A DNA stretch of 64,000 nucleotides from Synechococcus sp. KORDI-49 (GTDB lineage Bacteria > Cyanobacteriota > Cyanobacteriia > PCC-6307 > Cyanobiaceae): assembly GCF_000737575.1 (NCBI RefSeq), contig NZ_CP006270.1:1367163-1431162 (forward strand), read 5' to 3'. The notes beneath the pieces were generated by a model, which ran no database searches, had not been told where the DNA came from, and saw only the letters and a program-made list of their open reading frames with translations. This document shows positions 1,426-43,166 of this stretch, piece after piece. Made by a program: the position numbers and the translations under genes. The first letter of the stretch is position 1; every line of letters starts with the position of its first letter.

Positions 1426-2393
1426 CAGGTCGCCGCCTCCCACACCACCTGCGGGTCATCGCAGAACAGCGGGCCGGCAGGACACCAGCCTGGAGCCAGC
1501 CCCGGGGCCGCCGGGGTCGGACCCTGCATCTGGAGTGCTGCCAGGTGATGCAACCAACGGCGGCCGATCCCTGTTTCAAAAGCGGTGCTCACCATCCGCT
1601 GCGGCATGCCCTCCTGCAGATCCCGCAGCAGCAGACGCGGATCACCATCCACGGCTGGGCGGCGCACCTGCCAGCCGGGCCAGGTCTCCCGCAGCCTGGG
1701 ATCGCGCATCAGGGACTCGTCCAATGCCACCGGCCCCTGCTCCGCCAGCGATTCCAGTCCGTCCCGATCGTCCGGGGGCAGGGGCTGCTCCAGCCAGGCG
1801 AAGCGTGCATCTCCCACCAACGAGCGCATCCAGGCCAGCGCTGTCGTTCGGTCCCAACCGCCGTTCGCGTCCAACCGCAGACGCGCCGTCGACGGAAGGC
1901 GTTCCATCAACTGCTCAAGCCAGCGGCGCTCCAGCCCGTCTGCCTCTGCCGCGACCTTCCATTTCAGCGTCAGCGCCCGACGGCGTCCGCGCTGCTCCAG
2001 CAGACGATCCAGATGCGGCAGCATCAGGCCTCCGGCCGGCAGCAGCTCCGCCCCTTGTGGTGCCATCAGCCAGCCGCGCCTGGCGCGATCTCCAACCAGC
2101 CCATCCAGTTCCGCCAGCGCACCACCGAGGCCGAAACCGATGGCGCCGCTGAGTCGTGGCAACAGCGGCTCGAGCGTCTCCCGCGTCAGAGGGCTGGGCA
2201 GCGTCTCGAGCTCACGCCGGCAGCGGGGCAGCAGTGCCTGATCGAGCGGGGAGACCTCCCCCCAGCCGATTCGGCCACCCCTGCTCTCGAGCCGCAGCAG
2301 CCAGCCGGAACGATCCCGCAGCACCCCTGCAGCCGTGCGCAGCGGCTGAATCAGCGCAAACCGGAACGGTCGGATCTGCAGCTGAAGGTCCAT
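1425..2393 (-). CDS. menC: o-succinylbenzoate synthase
   Basis: Enolase-superfamily protein of 322 residues that dehydrates SHCHC to o-succinylbenzoate. Visible are the KxK pair (Lys144-Trp-Lys146), metal ligands Asp175 (RLRLDANGGW), Glu202 (WLEQP) and Asp225 (ALDES). Where the classic second catalytic lysine sits in the E. coli enzyme (IKP), this protein has RRP, so that lysine appears replaced by Arg245. The ATG start lies 7 bases after the menA stop; an upstream in-frame start inside menA is possible but adds residues outside the usual fold. It is sandwiched between menA and menE in one transcription unit. Confidence 0.9.
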   Translation of the reverse strand: MDLQLQIRPFRFALIQPLRTAAGVLRDRSGWLLRLESRGGRIGWGEVSPLDQALLPRCRRELETLPSPLTRETLEPLLPRLSGAIGFGLGGALAELDGLVGDRARRGWLMAPQGAELLPAGGLMLPHLDRLLEQRGRRRALTLKWKVAAEADGLERRWLEQLMERLPSTARLRLDANGGWDRTTALAWMRSLVGDARFAWLEQPLPPDDRDGLESLAEQGPVALDESLMRDPRLRETWPGWQVRRPAVDGDPRLLLRDLQEGMPQRMVSTAFETGIGRRWLHHLAALQMQGPTPAAPGLAPGWCPAGPLFCDDPQVVWEAAT

Positions 2394-42226: not shown

Positions 42227-42940
42227 ATGGCGCACATGTGGCGAACCTACCGCCGAGCTGTGGGCGTGAGCGCAGTCGGTGCACTCTCGCTGCTGCTGCC
42301 GGCCGGGCTGGCGGCCAGGGGAGTCTTTGACAGCAAACCGCTGCGTCAGGAGAGATTCGCGGTTCTGGCGCAACCGGTCGGTCGAAGCGACTGGAAACTG
42401 CTGGTGCTGGAGCAGATCAAACAACGGCCGCTGTGCTGGACAGCACGAGCCGACGGACTGATGGATCCCACGCTGAACACCTTCAACTTCGCCGGCATCT
42501 GCAGCCGTTATCTCGACAGCAATGGCTACTCGCTGCGCAGTGGAGGAGAGGATCTGGGCACCCGCTACAGGCTGAGCCTGAGACAGAAAGGCAGCACACT
42601 GGAACTGCAGGCAGGCCATGGCGGCAGCACGACACCGGTCACCATCGGTCGTGCCGTCATCCCTGCTCGCGATCGCAACGGCTTCGTCAGGCTTCGTCTG
42701 GACGATGGCTGGCGCCTGGAGCGTCGTGTGTACAGAGGGCGGACCCTGAGTCATGTGTATTTCGCCCACCCTGACCCGATGAACCGCCTGCTTGCGCGGG
42801 CCGCGGGTGGTGACAGCGGTGACAGCTTCGCTCGGCTCGGTGCCCCGACGGCTCCCTCGGCTCCTCCCCGCCTGGCATCGCGGGGGACGCTCAGCCCTGG
42901 CCAACCGATCAGGCTTGAGGTGATTCCTTACGGGCGGTGA
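42227..42940 (+). CDS. DUF3747 secreted protein
   Basis: A 237-residue protein with an N-terminal hydrophobic segment ([22 protein letters not shown]). After it comes [39 protein letters not shown], the typical opening of DUF3747 proteins, and later [19 protein letters not shown] with a second cysteine. Two cysteines (in PLCW and GICS) may pair. Function unknown; the family is known from cyanobacteria. The ATG giving [10 protein letters not shown] is chosen to place the signal at the start. Divergent from rnhA. Confidence 0.8.
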
Positions 42941-42947
42941 AGCCGCC

Positions 42948-42966
42948 AAGTGTCACAGTGACACTT
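42948..42966. repeat. 19-bp palindrome AAGTGTCAC-A-GTGACACTT
   Basis: Nine-base arms around one central base, just after the DUF3747 stop. Such a symmetrical site is a typical dimeric-repressor operator, but no T-run follows, so it is not a terminator. Confidence 0.6.
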
Positions 42967-43021
42967 GAGAGAGCGACCTGAACGGCGCGTCACTGCCGTA
43001 TCGCGCTTCTAGTTTCTGAGT

Positions 43022-43117
43022 GTGTGAGGAGTGCTGTACGCCTCTTCAGGGTCGAAACAAGGACAGACTCCTGAATGCCTACCACCCGAAAAACCCTGCC
43101 TTTGGCGGGGTTTTTTT
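43022..43117 (+). ncRNA. candidate small RNA with Yfr1-complementary 5' end and terminator
   Basis: A noncoding stretch ending in a Rho-independent terminator. A -10-like TAGTTT (43010-43015) would start a transcript near 43022, about 95 nt long. Near that start (43020-43032) lies GTGTGTGAGGAGT, exactly complementary to the ACUCCUCACAC core of the cyanobacterial sRNA Yfr1. A hairpin TTCAGG/CCTGAA (43045-43050 and 43070-43075) encloses a loop containing GAAACAAGGACA. The length and hairpin-plus-terminator layout recall Yfr2-type RNAs, but the GGAAACA loop motif is not exact. A 3'UTR of the DUF3747 mRNA, without its own promoter, is the alternative. Confidence 0.5.
43090..43117 (+). terminator. 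Rho-independent terminator
   Basis: Stem AACCCTGCC / GGCGGGGTT (one G-T wobble), a loop of three Ts, then seven Ts on the plus strand. It ends the plus-strand candidate RNA or the DUF3747 transcript; the opposite strand also shows a T-run (GGGTTTTTC), so it may act in both directions. Confidence 0.85.
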
Positions 43118-43136: not shown

Positions 43137-43166
43137 AAAAAAAACGGTCCCTGAAAGCAGGGACCG
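43137..43166 (-). terminator. Rho-independent terminator after rplL
   Basis: Perfect 9-bp stem CGGTCCCTG / CAGGGACCG with a 4-base loop (CTTT on the minus strand), followed on the minus strand by eight Ts. It lies 28 bases after the rplL stop and ends the rplJ-rplL transcript. Confidence 0.92.

Follow-up and report, generated by a model that had tools for sequence, protein, structure and literature searches.

In this study, we report that the spacer between a DUF3747 protein gene and rplL in Synechococcus sp. KORDI-49 very likely carries a yfr2 gene (Rfam Cyano-1), whose product would be an RNA of about 95 nt that titrates the small RNA (sRNA) Yfr1 with its 5' tip, with control by PlmA probable. 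The family, anatomy, conservation and complementarity are established for this locus, and we infer expression, start site, function and regulator in this strain. Yfr2 is nearly universal in cyanobacteria; the locus represents a known family with a known mechanism, and the original prediction of an RNA complementary to Yfr1 was a correct rediscovery. The only points found that go beyond what is in print are a split between paralogues in their complementarity to Yfr1 and the fixed geometry of an upstream palindrome.

In the window (the whole stretch of DNA analysed, 64,000 nucleotides), the rplL-linked Yfr2/Cyano-1 sRNA gene lies on the plus strand at 43022-43116 (start and end predicted). The upstream neighbour is the DUF3747 gene (42227-42940, plus strand; Pfam PF12565, E 6.8e-50), and the convergent neighbour is rplL, encoding ribosomal protein L7/L12 (43195-43590, minus strand; Pfam PF00542). 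A -10 element, TAGTTT, is located at 43010-43015, and almost every orthologue has TANNTT at the same position. Comparison of the orthologues revealed that conservation begins at 43022 and that positions 43016-43021 are variable; with a start near 43022, the RNA would be about 95 nt long. It comprises the 5' motif GTGTGAGGAGTG (43022-43033), which is perfectly complementary over 12 nt to the Yfr1 linker CACUCCUCACAC; a U-bulged hairpin, UUCAGGGUC-GAAACAAGGACA-GAC-U-CCUGAA (43045-43075), indicated by folding and by covariation among 74 distinct sequences from the loci compared; within it the conserved 12-nt loop GAAACAAGGACA (43054-43065), the second single-stranded motif of Yfr2; and an intrinsic terminator hairpin with a T run (43088-43116), which is present in the orthologues too. 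This is the plus-strand unit of about 95 nt after the DUF3747 gene, with its -10, hairpin and terminator, that had been described originally. The fold of the sRNA has an energy of -37.8 kcal/mol (z -3.4). The 5' motif is unpaired in the centroid structure and partly paired in the minimum-energy fold, and opening it costs 6.4 kcal/mol (about 6-8 overall), as the motif is able to fold back onto CGCCUC downstream. Such fold-back on the conserved CGCCTC, within 43022-43044, might keep the motif masked as long as Yfr1 is not bound.

Searching the whole window with Rfam 15 gave a single match above threshold, to RF01701 (Cyano-1) at 43018-43086; it scored 50.7 bits (gathering score 41), and its alignment covered the full length of the model (1-69). 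The Yfr1 model, RF01116, had no match within the window. Cyano-1 we take to be Rfam's name for the Yfr2 family, as the sequence and structure match at this locus also suggests. The genome has three RF01701 copies above threshold including this one, the second at G000:769175-769239 (62.3 bits; the 769 kb copy) and the third at G000:125727-125781 (41.4 bits; the 125 kb copy). Three features have been used to define Yfr2 (PMC2662882), namely a short 5' end that is single-stranded, a loop of 12 nt and a bulge in the stem at position -4, and all are found here, with the caveat that the 5' end may partly fold back. The central 12-nt loop contains GAAAC-AGG, GAAACAAGGACA being the commonest loop among the 74 sequences, and the bulge is a single U after three pairs (T in 70 of the 74). 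The locus also resembles the members of the family, Yfr2-5 of Prochlorococcus and Yfr2a-c of Synechocystis, in the single-stranded GUGUGAGGA 5' tip, in the bulged stem with a 12-nt GAAACAAGG loop followed by a terminator, in size (~80-100 nt), in the presence of multiple copies per genome and in being a lone intergenic gene.

Alignment of the 74 sequences gave a loop consensus of GAAAC[A/G/T][A/C]GGnnA, conserved to the same degree as the 5' motif. The covariation among relatives that had been proposed as a check was found: stem positions were paired in 95.8% of cells compared with 80% in shuffles, and 87 double-change cells were counted against at most 32 across 500 shuffles, which is support and not proof, since kinship among the sequences inflates such tests. 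The loop is closed by C-G in 53 sequences and by G-C in the other 21, which is a clean compensatory change; the Rfam consensus closes the loop with G-C (GUG...CAC), whereas this locus has C-G (GUC...GAC), like most distant cyanobacteria. Nearly all of the 20 Yfr2 copies outside the host's family have CGAAACAmGG together with a GTGAGGAG-type 5' motif. Judging from these sequences, the loop CGAAACAAGGACAG is the common form throughout the phylum, and, because CGAAACAmGG is near-general in distant cyanobacteria, this locus seems to have the ancestral form; the other paralogue class is that of GGAAACA with GTGAGGAAAA. The earlier view that the RNA was not obviously of the Yfr2 family is accordingly overturned by the Rfam score and by a loop, U bulge and 5' motif that are all those of Yfr2, and the inexact GGAAACA motifs behind that view are no ground for doubt, CGAAACAmGG being the phylum-wide form.

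Yfr1 is present as a single copy in the genome (G000:811146-811202; RF01116, 66.6 bits), with the linker CACACACUCCUCACACCCCCC. The core assumed in the original prediction is thus matched by the strain's own Yfr1, which holds an exact 12-nt partner, and the Rfam search then suggested recovers both RNAs. Contiguous pairing with this linker extends over 12 bp, at 43022-43033. The 13-mer GTGTGTGAGGAGT highlighted at 43020-43032 does occur there, but it is not the pairing segment: positions 43020-43021 neither pair nor are conserved, and they are probably untranscribed, lying upstream of the transcript start, because they face C in Yfr1, are variable and fall within six bases of the -10. The claim that a chance match is unlikely held up, as the 11-mer GTGTGAGGAGT and the 12-mer GTGTGAGGAGTG each occur once in the window, where 0.04 and 0.02 occurrences would be expected. 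Across the 2.59 Mb genome, ACTCCTCACAC and its complement have one occurrence each, in Yfr1 and at this locus respectively.

Computed on the Yfr1 linker, the accessibility-corrected pairing energy of this copy was -16.6 kcal/mol; the 769 kb copy scored -15.9 and the 125 kb copy -1.0. The background over 1,278 stretches of the window had a mean of +1.6 (sd 6.4), with three stretches matching the -16.6 of this copy, and none of 300 shuffles reached its energy. The 769 kb copy is nearly equal in energy despite only 9 bp of pairing because its motif is already unpaired, and the length of the complement alone is therefore no proof that this copy binds best. When full-length Yfr2-Yfr1 duplexes were computed with RNAduplex, ignoring folding, 511 of 2,000 shuffles were as good, the measure being uninformative in GC-rich sequence; the case therefore rests on the motif and not on global complementarity. 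With a complementarity of 12 nt, binding to Yfr1 is predicted for this strain, and the RNA could plausibly titrate its partner, as originally suggested.

A Yfr2 copy convergent with rplL was found in all 29 genomes of the genus with a readable rplL end (loci L155-L183), about 140-215 nt from the rplL stop codon. Some members of Prochlorococcus, Cyanobium and freshwater Synechococcus show this arrangement too; in many other Prochlorococcus loci, the same pattern search did not find it. The -10, motif, hairpin, terminator and palindrome keep a fixed spacing across 28-29 genomes. Of the rplL-linked copies, 28 have a Yfr1 complement of 12 nt and one has 11 nt; conservation of the motif in relatives, also anticipated, therefore holds for the 12-nt match and not for positions 43020-43021. 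In contrast to the 12 nt at this locus, the complement in the 47 other Yfr2 copies of the genus is 7 (17 copies), 8 (16), 9 (13) or 10 nt (one). One syntenic Yfr2 copy per genome has thus retained full complementarity to Yfr1, which the other copies have partly lost, and this difference suggests a specialisation of the paralogues by the strength with which they titrate another sRNA. No paper pairing Yfr2 with rplL was found in the literature searched, from which the RNA Biology 2009 family paper was missing, and the split between copies with full and partial complements may therefore be unreported. We put forward only tentatively, and with some doubt, that in marine picocyanobacteria the rplL copy retains the ancestral 12-nt complement and is the dedicated, strong Yfr1 antagonist, and that derived GTGAGGAAAA copies pair weakly with Yfr1 and act on other targets, the two classes differing in promoter layout (palindrome ~58 vs ~20 nt from the motif). 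At locus L025 (~1609-1640, minus strand), a Yfr2 copy is immediately followed by another GAAACAGGGACTCACAC-like stretch, possibly a decayed duplicate.

The palindrome CYGKCACAGTGMCAG is located 58-59 nt 5' of the motif in 28 of the 29 rplL-linked copies. At this locus it is perfect, AAGTGTCAC-A-GTGACACTT (42948-42966, plus strand), with its centre ~65 nt upstream of the predicted start, and is a candidate regulator site of the PlmA/CGRE1 type. It was also found within ~120 nt upstream of 21 of the 47 other genus copies, usually ~20 nt away, and in only 60 of 5,371 stretches of 150 nt from the loci compared, a count that includes the Yfr2 sites. The exact form TGTCAC-N-GTGACA occurs only three times in the genome, and two of these occurrences precede yfr2 genes (42948-42966 and upstream of G000:125727, locus L005). 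The third, at G000:2473689, was set aside, as it is embedded among coding-like repeats and has no Yfr2 in its vicinity. The GntR protein PMM1637 has been reported to bind CGRE1 upstream of yfr2, and a review ascribes the same regulation to PlmA (PMC6243067). The genome holds exactly one GntR-domain gene (G000:1715413-1715598). Together, these reports and the single GntR gene make it likely that the palindrome is CGRE1 and that the regulator is PlmA. The sole GntR-domain gene (L185:727-1821, minus strand) encodes a 364-aa protein, likely PlmA, near an infC-like gene.

Pairing with Yfr1 is a published property of Yfr2 and no novelty of this locus. The complementarity was pointed out, and pairing predicted, in 2008 (PMC2518516). 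In 2019, a Yfr2 pull-down recovered Yfr1 and Yfr10, and an E. coli reporter repressed by Yfr1 was restored by Yfr2 (PMC6778093); binding of Yfr1 and Yfr2 from Nostoc was shown by EMSA in 2020 (PMC6974561). By the work of others, binding has thus been shown in Prochlorococcus and Nostoc, and relief of repression in an E. coli reporter. The components of this circuit are present in the genome studied here. By the most likely mechanism, transcription of yfr2 from near 43022 would yield an RNA of ~95 nt with the exposed tip GUGUGAGGAGUG, the hairpin and the terminator; the tip would form 12 bp with the single-stranded linker ACACUCCUCACAC of the abundant sRNA Yfr1, and Yfr1 held in this way would be unable to repress its mRNA targets. 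The cyanobacterial GntR factor PlmA would probably control transcription through the upstream palindrome. Sponge or anti-sRNA RNAs of enterobacteria, such as 3'ETS-leuZ and SroC, likewise base-pair with a regulatory sRNA and relieve repression; they share no homology with Yfr2, which is an independent, conserved, multi-copy gene.

It is possible, though in our judgement rather unlikely, that this Yfr2 copy mainly regulates mRNAs through its GAAACAAGG loop and 5' tip, with Yfr1 as the antagonist of Yfr2. Published Yfr2 pull-downs enriched 302 mRNAs, so that Yfr1 may not be the sole or main partner; Yfr1 also shields Yfr2 from RNase E cleavage (PMC6778093), and the loop is as well conserved as the 5' motif. 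Rescue by Yfr2 of the reporter repressed by Yfr1 argues the other way, however, as does retention of the 12-nt complement in 28 of the 29 genomes in the rplL-linked class.

A separate, novel sRNA family that evolved as a Yfr1 sponge without kinship to Yfr2 would fit the lack of literal GGAAACA motifs in the loop, but it is refuted by the RF01701 match over threshold; the geometry of the 12-nt loop and U bulge is identical to that of Yfr2, a CGAAACA loop is usual in distant cyanobacteria, and we give this reading almost no credence. Just as improbable is that the match arose by chance in a spacer that is not transcribed, or that the locus is no more than the terminator or leader region of DUF3747 or rplL. 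A generic scan of the E. coli type did pick up neither a promoter nor a plus-strand terminator at the sRNA locus. Against this stand a motif expected only 0.02 times by chance, the five elements at fixed spacing in 28-29 genomes, and the possession by rplL of its own separate terminator, placed by a terminator scan at 43145-43166 on the minus strand.

The partner in the proposed titration was also followed among 98 relatives, of which 90 had Yfr2 and 89 had Yfr1. Yfr1 (RF01116) and Yfr10-type RNAs bear the complementary motif, in that their linker or loop ACUCCUCACAC is exactly complementary to this locus, which is itself neither Yfr1 nor Yfr10. Eight picocyanobacterial genomes lacking a Yfr1-model match were checked, and the 11-mer ACTCCTCACAC was present in all eight. 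In five of them (G039, G042, G045, G048 and G052) it occupies the loop of one hairpin, with another hairpin and a T run behind it, which is the published layout of Yfr10; the G016 match is simply the complement of that genome's own Yfr2. Where Yfr1 has been lost, another RNA thus seems to carry the motif in its place, as reported for Prochlorococcus SS120. A scan of viral sequences for the Yfr2 hairpin gave no matches, and 36 viral matches to the 15-base Yfr1 core were attributed to chance, as no Yfr1-like structure was seen on inspection. At two loci from genomes with no Yfr1 match (L271 in G052 and L272 in G045), a Yfr10-like hairpin with ACTCCTCACAC was observed directly 5' of a same-strand Yfr2, an arrangement published for Prochlorococcus MED4.
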